Below, piece after piece: positions 1,954 through 62,545 of a DNA stretch of 64,000 nucleotides. Source of the stretch: Craspedostauros australis. Taxonomy: Eukaryota > Bacillariophyta > Bacillariophyceae > Mastogloiales > Achnanthaceae. The notes under the pieces were generated by a model. That model did not search any database. It was not told the origin of the DNA and worked only from the letters and a program-made list of their open reading frames with translations. Each line of letters begins with the position of its first letter. Position 1 is the first letter of the stretch. The stretch is taken from positions 62,001 to 126,000 of the forward strand of contig JAMXDE010000043.1 in assembly GCA_026770025.1 (NCBI GenBank), in the 5' to 3' direction. A program made the translations under genes and the position numbers.

Positions 1954-3625
1954 GGCCTGCCTACCTTCTCTTGTCTCGTGATGATGATTCATCCAGATTG
2001 TGTGATCCTCAGCGCTTTCCCTCGTTCTTTTCTTGCGTTCCCTAGCTGAATTACTCGTCAAGTGGCTGGGGCGCTCGTTGGTTCATCAAGATCGCAGCTG
2101 CACCACGCCTACTCGTGCGCCACCGCAACTGTGTTTGCAACTGATGAGCGCTTCGACGCGACGACCAGCAAGGACTCCGTCAGGCAGCTCTTGTCTGATC
2201 TTGTCTTTGATGGTTATGGAATACTTGTTGTCGCCTGATGTGAAGTGCGCAGCGTCGATGTACAGGTTCCGCCCTGAGTTCGAGCGCGTTCCTCTCTTCT
2301 TTCTTCGGTCTCTCTGTTGGTCTCTGTTGGCCTCTATTGGTCTCTCTTGGAATCCATTACGTTGTTTCATTTCGTGACGCGCGTGATACGCTCACATCAA
2401 CATGCTTGTGTGGAACCTCGCACACGACTCCTCGTGGCTTGGAATACCATTGAGCGTCGCGAAGGTCATCAGAACGGTTTGGATTCATTTGGGATCACGA
2501 AGAGACCAGCCCCCGAAGAAAAAGAAGCCGTGTTCTTCTTCCTTCGTCAGGAACATGTGTTCCCTCATTCTCTAGACATTTCCGGAGTATTCCGCACGTA
2601 CAGCGCGTTATTCACAAAAAAGGTGTTTGCGTCCGCCACAACCCAATATCTACTATTCAAGCATAGACCGCGACTCAGCATCGCTCTGTGTCGCCAGCCA
2701 TTTGCTCTCCCCCAAATAGGTCACCTCCCCCTTTTCGGCAAGGCAAAACAGAAAGACTCAAACACACAGCAACGCAATTCTGTTCCTCACAGTTGCTGTC
2801 CACCCATCTCTTGAGCTATCTTTGTGCACGAGTGCGCAAGAGGATCGCCAGCCTCGAAAAGCAAATGGCAACCCCCGCATGGACTCTATTGCACTTCATG
2901 GTCTCCTTCTGCACGGCGGGGTGAAAGCGTAGCTCAAACCACGGCCATCGAAACTACGATTCGAATCATCTCTCTCTAGATTCGATGATGCTGACTAAGC
3001 CAGCAAATATCGAAGGTGGAACTTCTGGCGAAGTACGTCATCTCACGTTCGACAAACGTCGACGACTGAAATAGGCCGGTTGGTTCTGTTTTGCTACTGA
3101 CGTCTGGAAGACATGGCTTGTCCGCATTTGATTGGTTCGGTGACGCACGGCATCTGTTTCGATGTCTTCCTTGTTCTGTGCCATTTGCTCAACTCGCCGT
3201 CTTTTGTCGTTTCCCACCATGGTGATGTGTGTGCGTGTGGAGATGTACGACCTGGTCTGTACTCGTGCCAAGTACTGCAGCCCGAGATCGCGTTGTCATC
3301 TGCGAGGAGAGTTCGTCGTATCCACCAGCACAGCACATCCTCGGTGCCTCTTACCATACTCGTGCCGCAGCGCCGACAAGAGGGACCCGCAATCCAGAGG
3401 CCCGTATCGTTCGGCATCCCAACGAACTCATGCACCATCCATCACCTGTGATCCACTCAGCTAGATCCTCCCCCGCGACTCGAAGAACCTCACAAACGAC
3501 CACTGACACCGCCCACTTCCCGTCAGCTCTTGCAGTGTAGCACATTCATGGAATAGAGCACGAGTAGTCGACCACAATTGAAGGGTAAGTGGATCCTCAC
3601 ACAGTTGCAAACATACTCGTACCGT

Positions 3626-3668
3626 ACACACACACACACACACACACACATACATACACACACATACA
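3626..3668. repeat. (CA)n / (CATA)n microsatellite
   Basis: A run of about twelve CA dinucleotides passes into interrupted CATA units. Confidence 0.9.
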
Positions 3669-4370
3669 TGCACGACAAGCATCAGTGCTTGCTGCAACAA
3701 CAACAGCGGTTCTGCGAACCTCGATCAGATAGATATCTACCGAATCCATCCTTGTTGCACCTTTGCGCATGCTATTGCAATAACGAAGATCGCGCGTGTG
3801 TGAGTGAGTCCATGAGTTTGCAAGTCGATGAGTTTGCGAGGTTGAGTGCGAGGATCGCGAGGACCGTGATGATGGACTGAGGTAATAGTCCACTGCTCAT
3901 GGGCAGCGCGATGGCAAAAAGCAGATATAATATGTTGCAAGGTGCCTGCTTGTTGGCTGCGTGTGATTGACGGAAGGGAATTGGGAGCGTGGACTTCCAA
4001 CAGCCACCACCACACAAGGCTTGGAACACCTCAACGTTCCGTGCTACTCCACGAGTACGCTGTGCTGGTGCAACATGAGCGAACATTACCGTCACTACCC
4101 GTGCATCATGGTCTTCTAACAATACGCATGCTCTGTTCTGTTCTGTTCTCTGTCTTGCTCTGCCACAATTGTGCCATTCTCTACTCGTATCGGGTCGACT
4201 CTGATCTGGAAACTGATGTGTTCTGTAATGCAATACAATACATTATTCTATATTCTATGATGATATTCTACACTTCATGTCGGACTGCGCGAAACCATCT
4301 GCGATAGCCAACTACACCTTACCATACGATATCATACCAGACCATCGAATTTGTAGTTCACGAGCTTAGA

Positions 4371-17361: not shown

Positions 17362-18173
17362 TGTTGGCAAGTTCCGCTCACAGAAGCCTATGATCGTGGA
17401 AGATGGTATTGGTTGATAGTTGTTTGTTTGCTATTTCATTACGTTGGCACTCCAATCCTCTTGGTGTCTGTTTGTTCTCTTGCTCGATGTTCTCGGTGCT
17501 TCAATCTGTTTTGTAGATTTGGTCGTCCAACTATGAGTTGGTGTGCAAGATGCTCTCTCGCTGCTCTTTGTATTCTCTCTCTCTCTGTCTCAGCATCATG
17601 CACTTCGTGCTACACCATGCTCCATGTTCGATGCGTACTCCGCATTTGACACTCTGTTCATTCAGTACTGGCTCCTACTCCATGAGTACTTACCATTTGA
17701 AGTTCACCTTTAGTATCCATGATCTTGATGCCCTTTGGTCATCGGATCTTTGCCTCCTGCTCTGACTTGGAAACAGATGTCGACGTGGTGACATGATGAC
17801 ATCCTGTCAACATCAGTAGGCATCCTTCTGCTCTCCAGATGTCACGTTCCATTGGTGATGCAGCAGTCTGCCAGATGATATCGTCATCTGAGGTTTAGTT
17901 GGGAAGTACCTCGAGATTCTCTTGGTACCATACATTTCTCTTGATGGATGGACGGACGATATTTCCAATTCTCTCAGAAATCGTCGATTGCAAATTTCCT
18001 CCAGAAATTCTGCTCATTTTTGTGTGTTCCATTTCTGCTGTAATTCTGACGAATCACAGCATACTATTGACACGAATGTAGTTATACCGTCCAAGTGCGT
18101 ATGAGGGAATAACGGGTGAACGATGCACATATACACGTACATCTCGACATATGCTCACATGTACATCTCGACA
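17362..18173 (-). mobile_element. Copia-family LTR, inverted relative to the neighbouring element
   Basis: This 812-bp segment is the reverse complement, along its whole length, of the LTR at 23512-24300, with roughly two-thirds to three-quarters identity by eye. It begins TGTTGGCAAG and ends CTCGACA as read on the plus strand. Because it points the opposite way to the adjoining copia coding region, it cannot be that element's own 5' LTR in its original arrangement. More likely it is a solo LTR from another insertion or the product of an inversion. No matching target duplication was found around it. It is an old fossil. Confidence 0.75.
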
Positions 18174-21100
18174 CAAGGAGGGAAGGCGTACGTTGACGAC
18201 TTCCAAGACAGTGCTTCAAAGAGCAATGATGCCAGGTTTGCAAGCACCAGCAACTTCAAGGGAACATGCCATAACTGTGGAGTGTATTGGCATCGATCTG
18301 CAGATTGTCCTGAACGGAAGAAAACGAATCACAAGAAGAATGGTAACAATAGCAACATCAAAAAGAACGGAAACCGAAACAACAAAGGCACAGGAAATGG
18401 ATTCAATAGGAAATGCAACTACTGCGGCATCTTTGGGCATTGTGAGGCGGAGTGCCAAAAGAAGAAGTTCAATGAGAAGAAGAAGGCTGACGAGCAGACC
18501 AACACAGCGAAGGAAAGACACGACAAGAGCGGCCACGAGATGGTGCTCTCAGCAAGAGACACGCCGCTCTGCATGGAGGTGTCCGACGACATCGAGGACT
18601 CATTCTTTGACAACTTCCAACACTTCAAGAACGACGACGAAGTATGCGACGGCGAGGTCATACCAGAATGGCTCAGCGAGGAGCCAATCATCCACGAGGT
18701 GTATTGGAACGTGGTGTGTATCGATGATGTGTTCTGTTCTACTTTTGGGGATTATGAGCCTAACGCTCCTACTTGTGTTTGTTCCTGCTGCTGTTGTTGT
18801 CACGACCACTGCCGTGTGTTTGTTTTGTTGTTCTCGTTCTTGTCGTCACCGTCGTTCCTTGCTGTCGTTCCATTCGACTCATTTGACTTCATTCCCGTCG
18901 CCTACGCTCCAATAAGGTGGACCCACGCCGTGAAGTCAGCTACGAGTGCTGCTTCAACGTGAACGACATCATTCATCCACCCAGCGACGGAGCCGAGATG
19001 GGAACAGAGGCCATTGATATCAAGATCGAAGCAGCCACGAACGCAGACGATGCCGGCGCCAACAAGAACGGCGCGGATCGTGACAACGAAGACGTCTCCG
19101 GCGACGAGACGAACAGCGGCGAGGCGCCGCCTCCTCCAGCAGCGGGGAACAATAGAACAGGCATCGTTGACAAAGACAGCAGCAACAAATCGGTAGAGGA
19201 AGACCGGTTCAATCCAAACAAACAGGTCATCTACCCAATGGACATCCAATTCCCACCAGTTGCAGATCCCAGAAGATCGGACGACATCTATTGACATGAC
19301 ACAATCCCATACCCAACAGTGACAGCAGAGACAGTGCAATGACAACTCATCCATGATGCAGTGATGGCAGCAGGGATGCATCTATTCCCAGGGATCGCCA
19401 ATGGAGGATTACTACACGTATGGACAAGCATGATGGGCACCATACTGTCCGAGAACTTCAAATCAATCGAGGAGATCCTCGCCAACTCAGTCATCATCAA
19501 CCGTTTGTTGGAAGGAGTGAATGAGGAGCCCATTCCAGAGACGGAGTTGCACTACATTCTTGGAGGGTGCGTGCAGGTGCTCCTACGCGAGCGACCACAA
19601 GTCACACCCTACGATCTGGTGACAGGAACCCACCAAGAAGACACATGGCCAGCAGCGGTCACAGAGCCAAACTACTATGGCATGGATGATGAAGACGGGA
19701 ATCCCTACAACGAAGATGGAGTCCATGAAGACGACATGGCAGCGGCTGCCATGAAACAGCTCCATGAGCTGAGCACCAAGTACAAGGACAAGGTCATCAA
19801 GGACACCTGGCTTGCTGACAGCGGAGCTTTGTGTCACATCGTGAATTCAGACGCTGCCCTCTTCAACATGCAGCACAACAAGTCCTTCATACAAGTGGGA
19901 GACAGCACAAAGCTGGACTCTCCCAAGATTGGGTCCATTTGCTTGAAGGTCAAGCAATGAGACAACACATGCCACATCATCCGACTTGACGATGTGAAGT
20001 ACACACCCAAGATGTGGGTGAACCATTTCTCTACGAACAAGGCGCTGTACAACGGCTACCAGATTGGTAACGACGCCATTGTGATGGACATCATCAATGG
20101 ATCCAGAAAGAAGATCATCTTCAATCGTGTCTTCCCCACATCCAACGGATTCATCATGGGAGTGCATATGCATCCCATCATGCCAACCAAGGACGATAAG
20201 GCTTCCAAAGCCATTGTCAAGAGTCCATCCAAGGAGGTGAGCGCGAGGAACTTGCACTGAATGCTCGGTCATGTGCAACTCAAAACCATGAAGCGGACAG
20301 CCGCCCAATACGGATGGAAGATCATCGGCGAGATGCCGGTATGTTGCGACTGCGCGGTCGCGAACGCGAGAGTGAATAATATGTCAATGGCCAGAATCAC
20401 ACGAGCGACTCGCCACAGCAAACGCTTCTTCATCAACATTAGTTACACTAAACACATAGCTTCGGAGATAAACGCTACTGGACCCTGATCGTGGACGGCT
20501 GCATGGACCACTGCTGGAGTTTCTTTCTCAAGAACAAGAGTGACCAACCAGGGTACATCAAACAATTCGTCCACACGATCAAATCACAGACAGGTGATCA
20601 ACAAATCATCTTCCGAGGAGACAACAGCGGAGAGAACAAATCCACACAGGATACTCTCATCGATGCTGGACTGAATGTGAAATTCGAGTTCACGGTGTCC
20701 AACACGCCACAGCAGAACAGTAGAGTGGAGCGCAAGTTTGCATATCTCTACACCAAGATCCGTTCCATGCTCAACAGAGCACAACTCAATGATGAGTACA
20801 GGCATGGATTGTGGGCAGCAGCTGCGAGCACTGCCACTGCCATTGCCAACATCACTATGGCGAAGAACCAGAAAGCATCGCCACATCGCCAATTCTTCGA
20901 CAGCGATCCACCATATGCCAATTCACTTTGAACATTCGGAGAGGTGGGTGTTGTGAAGACTACCTACAGCAGGATCACTGCCAAGCTCAAGAATAGAGGT
21001 GAAGAAATGGTGTTCATTGGATATGCACACAAACATGCATCAGGAGTGTACAATATGTACAGACCATCAACCAATTCACTGGTCTGTTCCTGCAACATCA

Positions 21101-23511
21101 AGTGGCTCAACCAATCATACAGACAGTTCCATGGCTGAGCACAAGCACCAAACACACTCAACGATGTAGTAATGACGGACACAGACGGCTTCACAACCAT
21201 TGGATGGAAGGGAGCAACACCAAGGACAACAATGCGTCGAACATCAGAAGCGAAGAGAGTATCCTATGCAGACACAAACAGGTATCATATCCTATCAGAC
21301 AGTGATGATGAGGGTGATGAGGATGAGGGGGCAGCGACTGAACTGCTCGAGAACAAGGAAGATCGGAGCGAATCCGACCCAGAGGATGTCAACATTCCAC
21401 CATCCGGCGACGAAGCCAACGACGACGTGGATGTCACTCCACAGAACACTCCAGCGAGGTATACGCATGGCACAACATATAGACTCCTACCGACCAAACC
21501 AAGCAAGTGTGACATTGACAGAAAGGAGCGACTCCAACGCCACGAAGCAAGAGGCAGGAAGGGACAGAACAAATCCAAGCTTACCACAGGGGAGAAGATT
21601 CCCAGAGCACTGTGCGCACTCGCAGACTACAACATACCAGGTCAAAAAGAACGAGATGATGAGGGCAAATCATCATCGAATGAGGAGAGCGACGAACTCA
21701 GTGACGAGCTAGCCGACAAGTCGAACAATGAAACGAGTGATGACAATGAGAACACAGACGATGAGGAAATTGTAGACAAAGTAGAAGAGATAGAGGTTGT
21801 ACATCACAGCACGAGCGGATTATACAGGATGAACGCAACCATCGCCAAGACACCAGCGATCAACATCTGATTGTCGAAGCAGAACCAGAATGAAGAATCC
21901 GAGAAGCACATCGAACCAACAACATTCAATGGAGCGTTCAACCATCCGGATTCCATCCACCAAAAGGGATACCAAGCAGCCATCAAGAAGGAGTTCAACT
22001 CCATGGATACACGCAAAGTGTACATCAAGATCAGACGAAACGCCATCCCACGAGGCCACAGATGCTGCAAGTGCAAGTGGGTATTCAAGTTGAAACGCGA
22101 TGGCACACATCGAGCGAGACTCGTTGCATGTGGCTACTCACAAGTTGCAGGAGTAGGCTTCCAAGAGCACTACTCACCTGTCATCCATGACGTGACCTAC
22201 AGAGTCATGATGCTGATCAAGCAGATGGACTGCGCACTCGTTGATGTTGTAATGGCATTCCTACGTGGAGACCTCGACGAGGAGATCTACATGAACTGTC
22301 CCAACGGGATGGATCATCAAGCAGACGAAGCCCTGACCCTGCACAAGCCAATCTACAGACTTGTTCAGAGCGCCAGGCAGTGGTTTAAGATGTTGGTGTC
22401 GACCCTCAAGAACATCAACTTCGAACAGAGCGCGGCAGATCCGTGCCTGTTCTATCAAAAGACGAACGAAGGAAGTATGATCGTGGCCATCTACATGGAC
22501 AATTGCTTCTGCTGCGGGGACTCCAAGGCATTGGAGAGATTCCTGAAGGACATTCAAGGCAGCAAGTTCAAGGTGACAATCGAGCGAGGACTTGGAGATT
22601 ACCTCAGGTGCAATATCGAACTGGACTATGACAAGACCAGAGCAATGCTATGCCAACCACACCTCATCCAACATCTCATCAAAGAGTTTGGAGCCAAGGT
22701 TGAGACGATGCAACGCTACGCGACACCGGGAACCCCGGGTCAAATCATTGTGCGGCCATCCGAAGATAACGGACTGCAGAAGGTCGGACCAAAAGAACAT
22801 GCCGAATATCGCTGAGGCGTCGGTATGCTGCTCTTCCTCATCAAGCACTCGCAACCAGACATCGCGAACCCTGTGAGGGAACTCTCCAAGGTATTGATCG
22901 GGCCCACCAAGGCCGCAATGAAGGAGATGTATCAAATCATCAAATATGTGATTGATACAAAGGACAATAGATAGAAGATCCATCCAGCATGTTCAGACGA
23001 CGATGGCTGGGACATGGAGCTCTTCTACAATAGCGAATATGCAGGAGACAAGAACACGAGAATCAGCGTAGGAGGGTTCATCCTATACCTGTGCAAGGTG
23101 CCAATCCTTTTGGCAATCCAAGGCACAGAAGGCTGTCACACTCAGCTCATCCAAAGCAGAATACGTTGCCCTTTCCAAAGCGGCAAAAGACATCTTCTTT
23201 GTCATGCAGCTACTTAAAAGTGTGGGCGTTCCAGTAAAGACATCGATCAAGGTCCGCGTGAACAACATCAGAGCAATCTTCATCGCCAAGAACCCATCAA
23301 CATCTCAACGATCGCGGCACATCGACGTGCGCCATCACTACATGCGGAACATGGTAACCAACAAGAGCATCGAAATCATGTTCGTCAAATCCGAACACAA
23401 TACAAGCGATGGCTTCACCAAGAACATCAAGTCCGACTTGCAACAAGAGCATGAGAAGTCGTACCTTGACAAATCGAGAACATTCCAGTGACTGAATGCA
23501 TACAGGAAGGG
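18174..23511 (+). mobile_element. Ty1/copia retrotransposon, internal region (fossil)
   Basis: The parts occur in the Ty1/copia order. Gag-type CCHC zinc knuckles lie near 18.25-18.47 kb (CHNCGVYWHRSADC is one of two), an aspartic protease segment near 19.8 kb (DSGALCH), the pre-integrase and integrase regions near 20.27-20.75 kb, RVT_2 reverse transcriptase near 22.0-22.6 kb, and RNase H near 23.0-23.45 kb. A purine-rich tract just before 23512 fits a polypurine tract next to the 3' LTR. The copy is clearly broken, with about ten interruptions across its length, and looks old. The family resembles the copia-like elements common in diatoms. Confidence 0.92.
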
Positions 23512-31076: not shown

Positions 31077-31726
31077 GCTGATTTCACTTTTCTATCCGAA
31101 TTCAACGGAGGCTTGCAGTGAATAACCTTGTCTCTGCCTCTCCCTTTCTCTCTGGACGTCTGTACAGAGGATGCGCCCAGAGTGCTTTGCCTTGTTCTTA
31201 TCGCGTCGTTGTCGTCGTCGTTGTTGTCGTCGTTTCGAAAAAGATCGAGCGGCGTTGATGTCGTGTGAATGATGATGTAATGCTGAGGACAAAGAGAGGA
31301 GTCTGAAGGAATGGTCCGATGAAGAATCATCCACTGCGAGCACCTTGACGACGACAGTGACGATGACAGAACCGTCGATGATGATGGTGATGATGAGTTC
31401 TGGCGAGTTCTGGCGAGTTGAAGCACCATCGACAGAACCAGCATCAGCAGTCACAACATCAAGACGAAGAACGCTTCATTTCGCCTTTCGACACCATGTT
31501 CTTCGCTGTTTTGCCGTTTTGTTGCTGGTGTGACGATCGCTTCATTTTGTGATGCGAATCCAGTCGTGCACTGATTTTGGCGATCGTGGCCGTTGGAAGG
31601 TGTTCGTGTCGCGTTGGGGGAGAATTGTAGTCCAATCAGTCAAGCCGCTTGTGCGCTTTGGCAAAGAGCATGACACCTCCTTCTTACGAGACGAGGAATG
31701 TGACACGAAGTATCCTTGGTTGATAG
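31077..31726. other. Intergenic, no gene recognised
   Basis: This region is upstream of the cenH3 start on the minus strand and ends at the left terminal repeat of the next element. It contains trinucleotide-biased sequence (GTC/GTT near 31203-31235, GATGAT near 31373-31395) and overlapping low-complexity frames on both strands. Confidence 0.4.
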
Positions 31727-31999
31727 TATTGGAGCCACGACCGCACGAGCCGGAGACATGGAGCTACGATCGCATGAATCGGAAACACAAAAGATACGAC
31801 GACCACACAGCAGCGATCAAGACGCAACAGCAGAGAGAAATGAGAAGGCAAACATCGAAATACGTGCACGAACGCTGATGGAACAGAACAAAGCGAAACA
31901 CAACAAAAGTAGCGAGGTATGCCTCATAATTCCCTACACAACACAGTTAGCACACACACTGATCATCCACAGTCGTTACCATCAGCCCAGATTCCAATA
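31727..31999 (+). repeat. Left terminal repeat (273 bp)
   Basis: Identical in sequence and orientation to 33492-33764. It begins TATTGGAGCC and ends GATTCCAATA, and is preceded by GATAG. Confidence 0.95.
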
Positions 32000-32206
32000 G
32001 TTTATCAGGACCTTCGACTCACTGATCGTTCCCGGACGCTTGCTGTTGCCGTTGCCGCCGCCGTCGCCGTTCGCCGTTTGATTGAGGCATTGAGGCATTT
32101 TGGGGCAGTTTGGTTTTGAGGCACTTCTTCGCGCGGAGGATTCGACTGTTGGGGGGGATACCTGGCGCTATCTCGAACTGAGACTGCTACGCACTGCGCT
32201 TGCATC

Positions 32207-33469
32207 ATGATGGCTCGCTCTGTTGAGGGGATTGTCACCACATCCGGTTTCCGGATGCCCCGCGAGCCGCCTGACAAGACAAAGCAAACCGTCGAATTCC
32301 TCCGCACCGTCCTCGGGTTTTCCGAACCCTTCATCTACCTCGCCCCGATGTTTGAGACCAAGCAAGCACGCGATGGCCTGGATATCAAACGCGTCCTCCG
32401 GAGGGTGGGATTCCTCTCACGTCTACAGACTGGATCTATATTGATCCACCTGCGATGCCCCGCCACAACCTGCTCGCTTATCCCAGACTTGATTGCGCTC
32501 CATCGCTTTCGCGCGTACATCGAGAAGGATTTGGAGACCATCGCTCCAAATCAAGTTCTTGAACCAGATCCTGACGACATAACCAAGGATGCATATGCAG
32601 CTTTTTGTGACACAGTGCTGTCCCCAATACAGGACATCACCAAGGCAGTCATCTCACACGACAAGCACGCACAGAAGAACTCTGCGACATGGTTCGGTAT
32701 CCCTGAACTCACTCCGACCGCATGGCTCAAGTGCATGAAAGGGGGTTATGACAGTAACTTCCCGCCAGAAATATATGGCGACTTGGCCACTTTGCCATCA
32801 CCTCCAGCCATCAACATCATGACACCATGTACTTCCGACGCTCCACCTCCGCAGCCATTCCCCATGCGGACAGCAATCAAGCCATTCGCAACCAAAACCA
32901 GTGACCCACACAGAGCTGCGTATCGTGTTCCCTTGCGACCCCCAGCACCTGTTCCAGATACAACCAGACATGACGTTCCTCCCAGTGACAATGTCCGATC
33001 ACCACCGACCGTACTGCCTGTCCTCGCTCCTGTTCGTACTCCAGGTCCTGGTCCGCCTCCTTCTGTCCAGGGGCGCCACATCCAGCCCAGCCGTCCGTCT
33101 GTGATAAAGGGGCGCCAATCATCTCATCTTTGGTCGACCCTGACACATCGCTGCGGATCTTGGGTGAAACATGCTCATCACGCAACTCCCATCCTTCGCA
33201 TGCCACCAGATATCCCTGTTGCTGCACTGCGGCCGGAACCAAAGCCACCACCACCACATTGGCTCAAAGCAGACACACTGACCAAATCGCTCAGCAGATC
33301 CGTATTCATGAGGCTGAGACAGCTGTCTCTTTTCTGCATCCATCCCCATCTGATCGAAGCCAAAACCTACTGTCCGGACGATCCACAACCAGCTGAGCCT
33401 ACTACCCATGCTGAAAGAAGCACACGTGAGTTGCCCTGTGTCTGGATTACAACCTCACGTGCCCATTGA
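32207..33469 (+). CDS. Gag-like protein of the terminal-repeat element (unrecognised family)
   Basis: This 420-codon open frame fills most of the interior of the element. Residues 1-190 look ordered and mixed helical, with segments such as TVEFLRTVLGFSEPFIYL and AWLKCMKGGYDSNFPPEIYG. Residues 195-310 are strongly Pro-rich, and the C-terminal 100 residues are basic and Pro/His-rich. There is no CCHC zinc knuckle and no DSGA, DDE or YxDD motif. A structural Gag-type role is inferred only from its position between the terminal repeats and from the fold-then-proline-rich layout. I do not recognise the family. Confidence 0.55.
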   Translation: MMARSVEGIVTTSGFRMPREPPDKTKQTVEFLRTVLGFSEPFIYLAPMFETKQARDGLDIKRVLRRVGFLSRLQTGSILIHLRCPATTCSLIPDLIALHRFRAYIEKDLETIAPNQVLEPDPDDITKDAYAAFCDTVLSPIQDITKAVISHDKHAQKNSATWFGIPELTPTAWLKCMKGGYDSNFPPEIYGDLATLPSPPAINIMTPCTSDAPPPQPFPMRTAIKPFATKTSDPHRAAYRVPLRPPAPVPDTTRHDVPPSDNVRSPPTVLPVLAPVRTPGPGPPPSVQGRHIQPSRPSVIKGRQSSHLWSTLTHRCGSWVKHAHHATPILRMPPDIPVAALRPEPKPPPPHWLKADTLTKSLSRSVFMRLRQLSLFCIHPHLIEAKTYCPDDPQPAEPTTHAERSTRELPCVWITTSRAH

Positions 33470-33491
33470 CAAGTGAGGTTATAAAGGGGCG

Positions 33492-33764
33492 TATTGGAGC
33501 CACGACCGCACGAGCCGGAGACATGGAGCTACGATCGCATGAATCGGAAACACAAAAGATACGACGACCACACAGCAGCGATCAAGACGCAACAGCAGAG
33601 AGAAATGAGAAGGCAAACATCGAAATACGTGCACGAACGCTGATGGAACAGAACAAAGCGAAACACAACAAAAGTAGCGAGGTATGCCTCATAATTCCCT
33701 ACACAACACAGTTAGCACACACACTGATCATCCACAGTCGTTACCATCAGCCCAGATTCCAATA
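33492..33764 (+). repeat. Right terminal repeat (273 bp)
   Basis: Identical to 31727-31999 and followed by GATAG, the same five bases that precede the left repeat. Confidence 0.95.
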
Positions 33765-34151
33765 GATAGAACATGTACGACATCCGCGCCTTCCCGACCA
33801 TGGGGAAGTGCGATCCATCATCTCGTTATGTCCACCGGTCAATTGGGAATGTGACCATTCCGTCCTTCTTTGGTGTGCAACGGAGAGGGATGTCAGAAGT
33901 ATCGGTGACTTGAGGTTCACCAAATCCGCTTTGTTCCCTTCAAGAGACGGGCGTTCGGCAACACCGTGTCTATTGATGGCTCGCACGTACGACGTGTATT
34001 ACTTCCTCGCGGGTCGTATGGTACCATGATGAGATACGATCCTCACATACCTCTTGAGGCATCGGCCACCGCTCACTTTCGCTGCTGCAATACTCATTGA
34101 TTTCGTTCAGAAGTCGCTGCCTCCGTCTGCACGAAACCCAAAGAAATCAGC
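33765..34151. other. Upstream region of the EF-hand membrane gene
   Basis: This 387-bp stretch lies between the young terminal-repeat element and the start codon of the next gene and probably contains that gene's promoter. No specific motif was assigned. Confidence 0.4.
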
Positions 34152-35365
34152 ATGGCTTCTCACTTTGTCCTCGCGGGCGCCGCCGTCGCTGCGATGATGA
34201 CAGCCAACACGGTCGCCGGTGCCAAATGCGGCGATCCGTGGCGTGAACCCTGCCTCTCTGATTCCGACATCCGATACAAAGAAAACAACGACTACGATAT
34301 GGAAAGTCAGAACAGCATTTGGGTGAGTTGAGTGGAAGATATGGTGCGACTCTGCACGAGTACACCATGATTTGAGTCTAAGCGAAGGCCGTGGTTCGGC
34401 ACGCCGCATCCGCTATGTCGCATGATCTGCGTATCGAGAGTACATCTGCTCACTCAATTGTTCGCCACGAGCCATGCAACGCCCGATTTGTCTCCATCCA
34501 ATCTGCACAGAGAGCGGTCTCCGGATACTTCACGTGCGACACGTACACATTCGGCGCTGATAATCAACCCATCGAAAGATTCACGATTGATACACCGGAT
34601 GGAGGAGTGCTTCAAGTTGGAGCTTTCCCATACAGGGTCTTCAGCAACTACTCTGTCCGAGGCACCAGGAGCAGCAGTCACCGATACACCATCTTCCCAC
34701 CAGTTGAGGGGGGCTTTCCCGTTGGTATTGCTCGAGCCTTCGATGTGTACGGGACATCAAGCTTCGAGCTGGATGGTAGGGCGATCACCTTGCCGTTTCA
34801 GACCGCATTCAATATCACAGAGGAATCGTTCTCCATCACGGACACGTCGGTCACTTCTCCGGTTGGCGACGACACCCTCTTCACCAAGAGTTTTCGAGAA
34901 GGTGAAGAAGGCAATTTCTTAGCTACATCGATCACTTGCATCGACAAGGAATGCGATAGCATTCGTGAACAGAGCGTTACTTTCAGTGGCGGCAACTTCT
35001 CCCTCACCCAAGGATGCACCCTCAGGCGGATCACAGAGCAAGAATTCATCGACGGTATCGTGGCCATCTACCAGGAGTTCAGGGTCCCACCGGCTGCCCA
35101 AGTCCCAGTCCCAATGACAGGTTCCTCTGCCGCGGGCTTCTTTCCGACGGAAGAGCAGTGGTGTCAGGTAAGTTCAGCAGCGGAGAGAAAACGATCGACC
35201 AGCCTGACGATGTTGCTCGTACCGATTCCAAATGTTTCACTTCATGATTTCGTGAAATTGTGGCGATCGCGCCATTCGCTCTGTCGTTCTCATCACCTCT
35301 CGATCATTATTTGCTGATTCGCTCCATTCTGTTTCCTCCTTTCGCCTCTTTCTCTAAATCATTCC

Positions 35366-35403
<38 letters not shown>

Positions 35404-36301
35404 GCATGGACGACACAGTTCGATCCCAACTGCGCCACAAACCCATACCAAGAGCCAACCACACCCGTCAAGTCAGGAGTCATCGCTGGATTCACCATCG
35501 GCGGTGTCCTCTTCTTCCTCATCATAGTCGCCATCGCAGTCTACATATACAACAAACAACAGGCAAAGAGATACCGTGCCGTATTCGCCGCACGTGTTGC
35601 ACAGACCATGAGCATCCGCGTACCGGCCAGACGCATGGATGCTGCGGCATTGGCCCGCGAGTTCCAGAAGATCGACGCCCAATCCACGGCCAACAAGAGT
35701 GACCGACGTGCGAGCTCCGTTGGCAACATCACGAAGGAGGGCATGTGGGAGTTCTTGAGCTCCGGAAAGGCGGTCGAGATGAACCGCCATGACTTCGAAG
35801 CGTTGTGGGCAGTGATGGATGCCGATGGCAGCGGATATGTTGACTTCCTTGAGTTCTGTGCTTTCATGGGTCAGGTGAGTGTGCTTCCTGTTCTATGGGG
35901 CGGCGCGGTGTGTTTCATTTGGTATGCGTGGATGGTATGCGCAGCTGGTATGGTGTATCTGTTTTGCCAACCATTCAGCCATCCATCCATCCATCCATCC
36001 ATTCATTCATTCGCCATGCTATCGTACTCGCATCTGACATGATGTCTTTGTTCCAAAACCATCCATCCCTTTCTGCTGCGATCTTTGATTTGCTTCTTCG
36101 ACTGTGCAGTGTCATGAGGAATATGACAATGCTCGCGACAATCGCACGTTGATGGCGGAGCGTTTGTCCCGTCGCTTCTCCATGCGCCTGTCGCAGATCG
36201 AGGAAGACGCTGCAGGTCAAGCTGCTGATGCTGCAGCGACAGCCGATCCTGAGAATCCTGGAGAAGAGAAGGAGGAAGAAGATGTGCCAGGTAGTGCTTA
36301 A
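34152..36301 (+). CDS. Secretory single-TM protein with cytosolic EF-hand (paralogue A)
   Basis: Four exons (34152-34322, 34511-35167, 35419-35874, 36110-36301) join in phase 0 at every junction to give 491 residues. All introns are GT-AG. Residues 1-24 form a signal peptide ending AGA, followed by a Cys motif (KCGDPWREPCL) and an ectodomain to about residue 290 with sequons and Cys pairs (YFTCDTYTFG, SITCIDKECD, EEQWCQ, DPNCATNPYQEP). A TM segment (VIAGFTIGGVLFFLIIVAIA, about 296-315) leads to a basic stop-transfer KQQAKRYR. In the cytosolic part one canonical EF-hand loop, DADGSGYVDFLE (about 410-421), should bind Ca2+. A degenerate helix-loop precedes it, and an acidic C-terminus ends the protein. 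The family is unrecognised. The paralogue at 41698-43782 has the same exon layout. A Ca2+-linked surface or secretory-pathway role is inference. Confidence 0.85.
35371..35403. repeat. (CAAT)n run in intron 2 of paralogue A
   Basis: About eight copies of the CAAT tetranucleotide lie just before the exon 3 acceptor. Paralogue B has only two or three copies at the same place. Confidence 0.85.
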
Positions 36302-41697: not shown

Positions 41698-43782
41698 ATG
41701 ACCTCTCGCTTCCTCATCGCAGGTATCGCCGTCGCCGCCGCCATGACGGGCAGCATGGTGGCTGGTGCCAAATGCGGCAATCCATGGCGCGAACCCTGCC
41801 TCTCTGATTCAGATCCTCGTTACAAGGATAATGCCAAGTACGACGTTGCCGATCAGCCAGGAATCTTGGTACGTCTTCGCAACGCAACCATGGAGCTTGA
41901 TCATGTTTGCACCTCTGCCAGTACTGCCCACTTTCTTTGTCCTTGCCTCACCTTTCGTCCTATTCTCCGGTGTGTGGCCAATTTGCTGCTTGGCATATCC
42001 CGGCGCATATCAATCGCATACTTCTGCATCTCTCTCTCTCTCAAGCCTGCCTTTGCTGGGTTCTTCGTCTGTGATTCGTACACTTACGGACCAGACTCCC
42101 AGCCTCTCGTGGTGGAAGCAACCCCCATCGCTGGACTAGGAACATTCTTGACGGGTGGGTTCCCATCAAGGATGTACAGCAACTACACACGCTCAGGAAC
42201 AAGAACATTCCTTCATCGATACAGAATCCTGCCCCCAGCACCAGAGGTCGGCACAATCGGGCTGGCGCAGGCCTTGGACGTCTTTGGAACGTCAACCTTT
42301 GAGCTGGATGGGAGAACTGTCACCTTGCCCTTTCAACAAAACCTGGATTTCCCTCGCCGCCAGGCAGGTGAAGAAAACACGATCACATACCCAGTTGGAA
42401 ATGACACCACTGTGACCAAGGGAGTTGTGGCAGGTCGGAGATTCTTGACCGCTGTGACCACAATCACATGCCTCGATGAAGCCTGCAGTGCTCAAAGAGA
42501 GATTAGTTCTGTTTACAACAGCTCCAAGTTGCTGTTTTTTGTGAGCTGCAACAGCCAGCGCATCACAGAAGACGAGTTCATTGTGGGAATCAGGAGCGAC
42601 TACAACAAGTTCGCTGTGCCTGAAGCATTCCGCATCGAGGTGCCCATGACCAACACTTCGCTCACTGGTGTATTCCCATCGGAGGAGCAATGGTGTGAGG
42701 CAAGTACATCTATTCTGTATTCTACAGATACCAAGGCTTATATTCGGAGTGCAGTTGGCATCGGCGACCTTTTTGACCTCACATATCTGCCGCTGCTTCC
42801 CCCCTCTCACATTCCTGATCTTCTTTAATTTTCTATCTCTCCCTTCCCTCCATGCATTCCACCAATCAATCAATGCATGGACAACACAGTTCGATCCCAA
42901 CTGCGCCACAAACCCATACCAAGAGCCAACCACACCTGTCAAGTCAGGAGTCATCGCTGGATTCACCATCGGCGGTGTCCTCCTCTTTCTCATCGTAGTC
43001 GCCATCGCAGTCTACATATACAACAAACAACAGGCAAAGAGATACCGTGCCGTATTCGCCGCACGTGTTGCACAGACCATGAGCATCCGCGTACCGGCCA
43101 GACGCATGGATGCCGCTGCATTGGCCCGCGAGTTCCAGAAGATCGACGCCCAATCCACGGCCGACAAGAGTGACCGACGTGCGAGCTCCATTGGCAACAT
43201 CACGAAGGAGGGCATGTGGGAGTTCTTGAGCTCCGGAAAGGCTGTTGAAATGAACCGTCATGACTTCGAAGCGTTGTGGGCGGTGATGGATGCCGATGGC
43301 AGCGGATATGTTGACTTCCTTGAGTTCTGTGCTTTCATGGGTCAGGTGAGTGTGCTTCCTGTGGTATGAGTGGGTGGCATGATGATGCGCACGTATGGTG
43401 TATCTATGTTTCCAACCATTCAGCCATCCATCCATTCATTCATTCATTCATTCATTCATTCATTCATTCATTCATTCATTCATTCATTCATTCGTCACAC
43501 TATCGTACTCGCATCTGACATGATGTCTTTGTTCCAAAACCATCCATCCCTTTCTGCCACAATCTTTGGTTTGCTTCTTTGACTGTGCAGTGTCATGAGG
43601 AATACGACAATGCTCGCGACAATCGCACGTTGATGGCGGAGCGTTTGTCCCGTCGCTTCTCCATGCGCCTGTCGCAGATTGAGGAAGACGCTGCAGGTCA
43701 AGCAGCTACTGAAGCAGGCGCAGGTGCAGTGGAATCGACCGAGAATGTCGGAAAAGCCAAGGAGAATGACGAAGAGGCCTAG
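41698..43782 (+). CDS. Secretory single-TM protein with cytosolic EF-hand (paralogue B)
   Basis: Four exons (41698-41868, 42046-42699, 42890-43345, 43591-43782) give 490 residues, with the same phases and almost the same exon lengths as paralogue A (171, 654, 456 and 192 nt). A signal peptide ends in VAGA before KCGNPWREPCL. The ectodomain (FFVCDSYTYGPD, TITCLDEAC, EEQWCE) shares roughly 45% of residues with A by eye. From the end of intron 2 to mid exon 4 the two genes are almost identical, including the TM helix and the EF-hand loop DADGSGYVDFLE. Intron 2 appears to use a GC donor (GAG|GCAAGT) where A has CAG|GTAAGT. The last 20 or so residues differ from A. The family is unrecognised. Confidence 0.85.
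43427..43492. repeat. (CATT)n run in intron 3 of paralogue B
   Basis: A few CCAT units are followed by about 14 perfect CATT units. Paralogue A has a shorter CCAT/CATT tract at 35979-36010 in the matching intron. Confidence 0.9.
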
Positions 43783-60935: not shown

Positions 60936-61387
60936 GGCTTCTAAGCCAATCAGATCACTCCATTATGAACACAAGATACCTTTCGAACAGGGGGTGACCA
61001 AGACCGAAACGATCGTATAACGTCAATCGAAAAAATTATGAAATCCTGGAGTTGAGTTATGAACGCCCCAAAAAGACCGTTCATAACTCAACTCTCACTT
61101 TTCGTCGAGATCTCATCTCGTGCCTTCGTCTCAAATCCCTTCTCCAACGGCAATTTCGAGTCGATGTGATTTCTTCCCTCACAAGCGTTGGCATCAGTTT
61201 TTATCGACCTCTGTCGGTCAAGTATCGTCACGCGACCCTCCACTTCCTCCCTTGCATGCACCATCAATCTGTGTCGATTGTCCATCTCCTTTCATGCACG
61301 TCGTGGCCTTCCTTCATGTAGCTTGTTCCAAGAGCTTGTGGTATGATTAGCGTTTTGTGTTATATTATTGGCATCTGCTCTATCATC

Positions 61388-62545
61388 ATGGATTACTCCT
61401 CTTTCCTCCGACGACGCCGCGAGGTAGCCACCGCTACCGTCCTCATCATCATCGCCGAGCAACTACTGGCACAGCAGCGTCTTCTCACGTTCGCTGTGGC
61501 TGACTACCTCCATGACAGCTTGCCCACTGCTTTGTGCAGAGGTCGCTACAAGAGCTCAGGGGTTTTCTCGCGTGATACTGGCACCTTCTGGCAAAACATT
61601 CTGGAACATGGTGATGCCATGGAGTTCTACAACTTCGTTGGCATCACCAGGGAGTCCTTCGTCCACCTCGCTGCTGTCTTGAAGCCATCCATCGAGGCTC
61701 TTCCGGTCAACCAACGATCTGTGGCCCCGCGTCGATGTGATTTGGCACGTCGCAGATTCACACACATTGATGTGACAGCAATCGTTTTGAAGTATCTCAC
61801 TTCAAAGGCCGAGCTCAAGAACCTCTCGCCCCAATTCGGTTGCATCGTTAGTGTCTTCCATGACTACCTCAACTTGGGCATGGACGCAGTCCTAGAAGCA
61901 CTAATCATGCATGACCTTGCCAAGGTGTTCTGGGATAGAAGCGATGACGCCCTCGATGACATGAAGGACATCAGCAAGTCCTTCCCTGCTGCGCCTGGCG
62001 TCGTGGCAGTGATTGATGGCCTGAAGCTCATCAGCCACGCACCAGCGCTTCCCGCCGAGCAGAACCGCGACTTCAACGGGTGGACCAAGGACGTCAACCG
62101 CAATCTCGTGCTGGTTTGGAACTTGAAAGGGCGAGTCGTCGACTGTGCGGTCAACACTCCTGGCAGCTTTCACGATTCCACGTCCTGTGTCTGGGCGCAC
62201 ATCTACGAGCACATCATGAAGCTACCAAAGGAAACAGCTGTCGCTGCAGATGTCGCCTTCAGCACTGCCAAGAATCTGAAGGGCAAAGTGATCAAGGTCA
62301 AGAAGAGCAAGCAACACAAGCACTCTGCATACAACTCTACTCTCACACACTTGCGTCAGTGCGCAGAGTGGGGCAATCATACCCTCACAGCGACCTTCCG
62401 CCGCCTCCTCACTCCCCTTCCTACTGATAACATCCGACGCGGCAGGATCATGTGGTCTTCTATCCTTCTCCACAATTGGAAGACCGAGACCTGCGATCGC
62501 AATCAGATTCGTACCTACCTCAGGGACGTCTCCTCCAAGCTCTAG
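61388..62545 (+). CDS. PIF/Harbinger transposase
   Basis: This 385-residue DDE transposase catalyses cut-and-paste transposition in the nucleus, in this superfamily together with the Myb-like partner encoded downstream. The N-terminal half is a helical DNA-binding region (LLAQQRLLTFAVADYL, ITRESFVHLAAVL). The catalytic residues are Asp210 (VAVIDGLK), Asp288 (AADVAF) and Glu327 (LRQCAEWGN), with the family's PGSFHDS motif between the Asps and a final FRRLLTPL / WSSILLHNW pattern. The frame opens at 61343, but I prefer the ATG at 61388 because the decayed copy at 59107 starts at the equivalent point. The gene is convergent with the SANT gene, with a 376-bp gap. No disabling change is seen. Confidence 0.9.
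   Translation: MDYSSFLRRRREVATATVLIIIAEQLLAQQRLLTFAVADYLHDSLPTALCRGRYKSSGVFSRDTGTFWQNILEHGDAMEFYNFVGITRESFVHLAAVLKPSIEALPVNQRSVAPRRCDLARRRFTHIDVTAIVLKYLTSKAELKNLSPQFGCIVSVFHDYLNLGMDAVLEALIMHDLAKVFWDRSDDALDDMKDISKSFPAAPGVVAVIDGLKLISHAPALPAEQNRDFNGWTKDVNRNLVLVWNLKGRVVDCAVNTPGSFHDSTSCVWAHIYEHIMKLPKETAVAADVAFSTAKNLKGKVIKVKKSKQHKHSAYNSTLTHLRQCAEWGNHTLTATFRRLLTPLPTDNIRRGRIMWSSILLHNWKTETCDRNQIRTYLRDVSSKL

Follow-up and report, generated by a model that had tools for sequence, protein, structure and literature searches.

A short LTR element of the diatom Craspedostauros australis carries a single frame matching three parts of a Ty1/copia-type polyprotein

Results and Discussion

The element at positions 31727-33764 of the window (the whole stretch of 64,000 nucleotides analyzed here, C41:62001-126000 of the Craspedostauros australis assembly) is very probably a young insertion of a non-autonomous Ty1/copia-type LTR family, which would have originated by deletion and be mobilised in trans. 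This LTR insertion is 2038 bp long and has the following features.

31722..31726 (no strand): target-site duplication on the 5' side, GATAG, read from the sequence
31727..31999 (+): 5' LTR of 273 bp, TATTGG...CCAATA, same as 33492-33764 and found at further genomic sites
32000..32020 (+): post-LTR stretch GTTTATCAGG... at the position of the primer-binding site (putative); its GTTTATC is common to the relatives
32207..33469 (+): p420, a predicted mini-polyprotein frame of 420 codons, open in 8/8 full copies
32207..32806 (+): putative N-terminal pre-capsid domain of p420, about aa 1-200, from the alignment and domain order of the relatives
32960..33235 (+): proline-rich piece of p420, about aa 252-343, probably related to the integrase-RT hinge by a match to the C11 element L020; the least certain of the three pieces
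33254..33454 (+): putative RNase H tail remnant of p420, about aa 350-416, from a match to the larger element of the composite on C1
33483..33491 (+): polypurine tract AAAGGGGCG; GGGGCG also precedes the 3' LTR in 12/12 larger elements
33492..33764 (+): 3' LTR of 273 bp, same as 31727-31999
33765..33769 (no strand): target-site duplication on the 3' side, GATAG, read from the sequence

The two LTRs are identical at 273 of 273 bp, and the raw exact match extends to 275 bp, as both LTR copies have a G on either side; the length computed for an exact repeat by chance in 64 kb is about 16 bp. The first-pass annotation described identical 273-bp direct repeats, a GATAG duplication and a purine-rich tract before the right repeat, all of which are borne out by the sequence, and its reading of a recent LTR-type insertion gains from further copies with duplications of their own (see below). 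It also described an interior without polymerase genes and with a single 420-codon protein, which agrees with the listed interior frames, the longest being 420 aa and the next longest 126 aa.

The LTR termini are TATTGG...CCAATA, and thus lack the usual (not strict) TG...CA. Among 20 tRNA genes, drawn from 63 listed, no convincing primer match to the post-LTR stretch was found, the best being 8 nt at offset 9. The initiator-tRNA pattern occurred on C90 only, in an organelle- or bacteria-like form. Self-priming was rejected, the longest complement between the LTR and the post-LTR stretch being 5 nt. Contigs C83 and C89 have the same tRNA run at shifted coordinates, and are perhaps two versions of an organelle genome.

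Elsewhere in the window, inspection by eye suggested another copia-like element at 18123-22815, with CCHC zinc-knuckle motifs and RT-like frames and split into several frames, and a Harbinger-type transposase-like frame at 61343-62545. Two similar genes at 34391-36042 and 41698-43369 have the common stretch NAWTTQFDPNCATNPYQEP... and, by eye, an EF-hand-like end, and appear to be a local duplication.

Copies in the assembly

The genome searched was a 74.8-Mb assembly of 90 contigs, and the copy counts are lower bounds. The LTR search found at least 20 matched pieces: 14 form the LTR pairs of seven full copies (2034-2038 bp each), two are the outer LTRs of a composite on C1, one is a near-identical solo LTR on C12, and three belong to two divergent LTRs, on C5 and C3. 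With the interior, at least eight full-length matches were obtained (the seven ordinary insertions and one inside the composite), together with one partial match on C11. All seven ordinary copies are flanked by exact 5-bp duplications (GATAG, ACGAT, GCTTC, GCAAC, CGGAA, ACACT and GTTGA), as is the solo LTR (ACTGT). The divergent C5 LTR has no evident duplication at its ends as listed, and no polyprotein match was found in the 4.2-6 kb around the C5 and C3 LTRs, or around the C18 and C19 relatives of the middle LTR of the composite. The first-pass annotation had proposed a genome-wide count of the repeat and regarded a one-off segmental duplication as the alternative; the count stands at no fewer than seven ordinary full copies, one near-identical solo LTR and one composite, and since the copies are dispersed and have differing 5-bp duplications, such a duplication is excluded.

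The window copy and two others (L011 and L012) are identical over all 2038 bp, and the remaining pairs among the seven ordinary copies have 10-25 differing columns. The LTR pairs are identical in six of the seven, with one difference (site 269) in L014. Across these copies eight LTR sites are variable, and at each of them both LTRs of a copy are in the same state; this agreement is directly explained by reverse transcription and not by duplication at the DNA level. The copies carry the mark of reverse transcription. In the empty-site search of this assembly, the 471 bases left of the window insertion matched that place alone.

Larger copia-type relatives

Twenty stretches were taken and 17 analyzed, and an LTR pair was detected in 13, one of which is a derivative on C9 (see below); there are thus 12 larger elements. 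Their 5' LTR begins with TATTGGAGC in nine, like that of the short element, and with TAACGAAG or TAATGAAG in three, and AATA ends the LTR in all 12. GTTTATC follows the 5' LTR, as in the short element, and GGGGCG directly precedes the 3' LTR, again in all 12 of these elements with a detected LTR pair. The aligned LTRs are 100% identical in ten, 99.5% in one and 93.6% in one. The first-pass annotation had suggested looking for a larger element with the same ends and polymerase genes. Polymerase-bearing elements with similar ends do exist, but none with the exact LTR of the short element at both ends was found in the LTR search of the assembly.

The intact-looking relatives are single frames of 2254-2635 codons, in which the order is N-terminal domain, capsid-like domain, protease-like motif (found in six of seven relatives examined), integrase-like region and RT. 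The larger relatives are assignable to the Ty1/copia type by RVT_2 (E 9.2e-18 against Pfam in the larger element of the composite) with the integrase-like region upstream. The label "capsid-like" (A2) is inferred from position and general look, and this region had no credible match in Pfam or among solved structures. The integrase label comes from D,D(35)E-type spacing seen by eye in the larger element of the composite and from weak Pfam rve matches in four of seven relatives (best E 0.021); against solved structures the integrase-like region had no match. Its text presumably resembles that of CoDi-type diatom copia elements.

Protein searches combined gave at least 28 loci with the N-terminal domain in the assembly. 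An integrase match lies within about 6 kb downstream in 16 of the 28, one of them decayed; the other 12 are the eight family copies, C9, C1:501 kb, C11:1597 kb and C28:307 kb, in a census that scored 115 of 626 candidates and therefore does not prove the absence of integrase. The C11:1597 kb locus has a frame length of 1674 and no match to the integrase stretch of L022.

A further integrase lineage (C19:607 kb, C50, C70, C71 and others), about 55-58% identical to the integrase of the C25 element L021, lies in very long single frames, often of 3555 and at most of 3594 codons, and had no N-domain match in the protein searches. Between integrase and RT, at about aa 1806-1895, the L021 polyprotein looks chromodomain-like by eye, and this part is kept in the C9 derivative; the corresponding part in the composite's larger element had no Pfam match.

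The composite on C1

The composite on C1 comprises 10.1 kb between two LTRs of the short element's type, first a larger copia element, then a middle LTR that differs from these two (228 bp), and last the interior of the short element, and a single CACGA duplication surrounds the whole. The outer LTRs are one base apart, and the short-element half is one base from the three identical ordinary copies. Elsewhere in the assembly the middle LTR has only partial matches, of 78% and 75%, and no second close copy of the RT region of the larger element was found by DNA search, the next best being 69%. The change-overs fall where the 3' end of the LTR passes into the first part of the post-LTR sequence, and both elements share a short stretch there. 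One possible explanation is a single crossover in which the larger element, as a circle or as cDNA, recombined with a short copy already in place; homologous recombination of cDNA is known in yeasts. Alternatively, an already joined unit may have transposed, or the composite may be an assembly fault. Near the composite, positions 1 to about 960 of L009 contain a very long trinucleotide repeat (homopolymer translations).

Relationships of p420

Against Pfam, p420 had no family at E up to 1. In the protein search of the assembly it matched at least 32 places, including the eight copies and the larger element of the composite, which at 41% identity is the nearest larger frame, so that no close donor of p420 was found in the assembly. 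The other matches are weaker, cover mostly N-terminal or C-terminal parts, and lie mostly inside long frames. The protein of unknown family in the first-pass annotation is thus still without a Pfam match, but it has relatives among the larger elements of this genome.

As judged from these comparisons, p420 matches three pieces of a Ty1/copia-type polyprotein and would be composed of the pre-capsid domain, the integrase-RT hinge and the RNase H tail. The N domain and its linker occupy aa 1 to about 250, the hinge lies at about 252-343 and the RNase H tail at about 350-416. One reading frame spans all three, as in the larger polyproteins, and the capsid-like, protease, integrase and RT parts of the relatives are lacking. 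The N domain has 48% identity to that of the larger element of the composite (first 140 alignment columns), and the RNase H tail 42% over 69 aa to the tail of the same element. The hinge piece is 49% identical over 82 aa to L020, a decayed element, where the match sits just behind the integrase part and in the frame of the end of that part; the hinge of the composite's element gave a weak match (E 0.001), and this assignment is the least certain.

The protein had been called gag-like, which does not hold if a capsid is meant: residues 1 to about 200 match the domain preceding the capsid-like domain, and nothing in p420 matches the relatives' capsid-like region. The profiles of the N domain and of the capsid-like domain (A2) aligned with a probability of only 0.6% in hhalign; on this comparison and on the domain order in the relatives, a capsid reading of the first 190 residues was rejected. 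A structure prediction for these residues, also suggested earlier, was run with AlphaFold2 on the single sequence, and the resulting model was unusable (mean pLDDT 33). Neither Pfam (three families, each hitting one of 12 members; best E 0.16) nor the solved structures (best E 0.86) provided a credible match to the N domain, and among the viral contigs searched no relative of p420 was confirmed.

A second derivative family

In two further elements, L030 (C9) and L031 (C1:501 kb), inner parts of the L021 element are missing. Compared with L021, L030 is 95% identical in the N domain, 73% in the hinge, 88% in the next stretch and 98% in the stretch from the RH tail into the LTR. Its frame has 682 codons, and by coordinate arithmetic every piece keeps the frame of L021. 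The 5' LTR begins with TATTGGAGCG and ends with CCGTTA, identity between the aligned parts of the two LTRs is 97.4% over 190 bp, and the target duplication is AGCAC. The 3' LTR of L030 is interrupted by an insert with the inverted ends CAAGACACGGGAA...TTCCCGTGTCTTG (reverse complement, 3333-3770), perhaps a small DNA transposon. L031 has junctions in common with L030 and shorter frames, and its 3' LTR was not detected. Retro-copied splice products were rejected as the source of the deletions, since by eye the junctions of L030 and L031 relative to L021 have no consistent GT-AG. The breakpoints of the C9 family differ from those of p420, and therefore the two families look independent in origin. 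Alternatively, they may have an ancient shared origin followed by recombination.

Does the p420 frame have a function?

It is quite possible, if somewhat short of an even chance, that the frame is a functionless leftover, and that the element is a plain LARD/TRIM-like parasite spreading by its recognised ends after a recent deletion, the donor being lost or unassembled. Among the eight copies, p420 has 14 variable sites, 11 nonsynonymous and three synonymous, and about 10 and 3.5-4 are expected without selection; purifying selection is therefore unsupported by these SNPs, which fits a leftover. Similarly, changes are so few that about 0.4 stops are expected, against none observed, and therefore the open frame in eight copies proves nothing at such a shallow depth.

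Comparison with the relatives gives a different picture for the two ends of the protein. This test used eight of 12 aligned elements, the near relatives L026, L031, L037 and L039 being left out. In the RH tail (32 columns), p420 deviates at five of the 12 sites invariant in seven relatives and each relative at 0-2, a relaxed appearance that also suits a leftover. In the N domain (first 140 columns), p420 deviates at one of eight such sites and each relative at 0-3. Pooled relatives deviate at 4/53 sites in the RH tail (Fisher p 0.008) and at 6/55 in the N domain (p 1.0), these p-values being a guide only since the pooled rows share ancestry. With a 6-of-7 rule, p420 deviates at 5/16 sites in the RH tail (others 0-2) and at 3/16 in the N domain (others 2-8). 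The loss of invariant residues in the RH tail but not in the N domain, a contrast of 12 with eight columns, would fit a selection that acted on the N domain once the deletion had occurred and argues against a mere leftover, as does the C9 family, in which a long in-frame mini-polyprotein still includes the N domain. Furthermore, variable sites among the copies are less frequent in the N domain (3/600) than in the LTR and leader (14/480; Fisher p 0.002); this point is ambiguous because the N domain is not clearly poorer in them than the remainder of the frame (11/660; p 0.06), and there are few synonymous changes as well. These observations are weak evidence that the N domain of p420 may still work.

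A bolder reading, to which we give a rather low probability, is that the pre-capsid domain is a selected module: losses of the capsid-like domain, protease, integrase and RT would recur in this genome, an in-frame mini-polyprotein would be retained each time, and the domain, translated from the RNA of the element itself, would mark or recruit that RNA for the particles of a relative. If true, this would define a class of non-autonomous elements by a retained adapter and not by a retained capsid.

It is improbable that the mini-polyprotein is no packaging aid and interferes with the larger relatives as a trans-dominant competitor. A truncated Gag restricts Ty1 by a comparable logic, and p420 has one end of the structural part but neither the capsid-like domain nor the protease or enzymes; however, an element that depends on a helper would itself pay for such interference.

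Origin and mobilisation

In the explanation that we prefer, the short element would have arisen by internal deletion from a relative now lost or unassembled. Its RNA may enter the particles of larger relatives that have end motifs in common with it, and their enzymes would reverse transcribe it and integrate the cDNA with a 5-bp target duplication. The N-terminal domain might still act in this process, for example in packaging or assembly, and the hinge and RNase H tail might be passengers or hold needed 3' sequence. Mobilisation in trans by the larger relatives is plausible because they share the post-LTR motif, the polypurine tract and mostly the LTR ends; as a group the twelve larger elements could supply the enzymes, none being singled out. 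The suggestion in the first-pass annotation of a non-autonomous element dependent on another family thus stands as to a non-autonomous, multi-copy element, and since no larger element with the exact LTR at both ends was found in the LTR search, its dependence is something that we infer.

Two other explanations have next to no probability. Segmental or other DNA-level duplication in place of retrotransposition might be suggested by the three identical ordinary copies and the composite half one base off, but each ordinary copy has its own flanks and exact 5-bp duplication, LTR variants agree within copies, and the left flank of the window copy is single in the assembly. An autonomous element with polymerase genes missed on another frame or strand might be suspected from a single frame without a Pfam match, but no other listed interior frame exceeds 126 aa and the intact-looking relatives are long single frames.

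Comparison with known systems

LARD and TRIM elements keep their ends and cis sequences, have lost the enzymes and are moved in trans, and they are classed as non-coding. The short element similarly has kept its ends and lost the enzymes; in contrast, it has a 420-codon frame open in 8/8 copies and predicted to be coding. From Ty1/copia elements it differs in having no RT and integrase of its own, and it is linked to them by the end motifs and the three polyprotein pieces. BARE1 and BARE2 are different elements, with a different missing part from that of the short element. In this pair one element is thought to use the proteins of the other (PMC8704663), a reliance on another element's proteins as proposed here.

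The short element is a known kind of biology, a non-autonomous LTR element, with an unusual retained part, and TR-GAG, the terminal-repeat retrotransposons that have a GAG domain, is the nearest kind found. In the report on these elements, a copia TR-GAG transposed, a potentially autonomous element of its subfamily was similar, and the TR-GAG encodes GAG itself, of 562 aa (PMC8704663). Both are LTR elements whose one frame comes from the structural part of a copia polyprotein, and both lack a polymerase (PMC8704663), whereas the short element has no capsid-like domain and its frame links a pre-capsid domain to a hinge and an RNase H tail. The CoDi Ty1/copia elements of diatoms have the order PR, IN, RT, RH, and three of 26 CoDi families are without TG/CA termini (PMC2806351); the copia order and the occasional non-TG/CA termini are the same here, a likeness by description. 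Among the literature matches listed (titles and beginnings of abstracts), neither the element nor the three-piece layout was described.

Conclusion

A defective copia-type element appears in a recent wave beside larger relatives, many of which have identical LTRs, and in the composite a larger relative would have recombined with the short element where LTR and post-LTR stretch meet. The same pre-capsid domain has stayed in frame in two deletion families, which poses a testable question: what is the role of the extra N-terminal domain of these polyproteins, and must a dependent element retain it?
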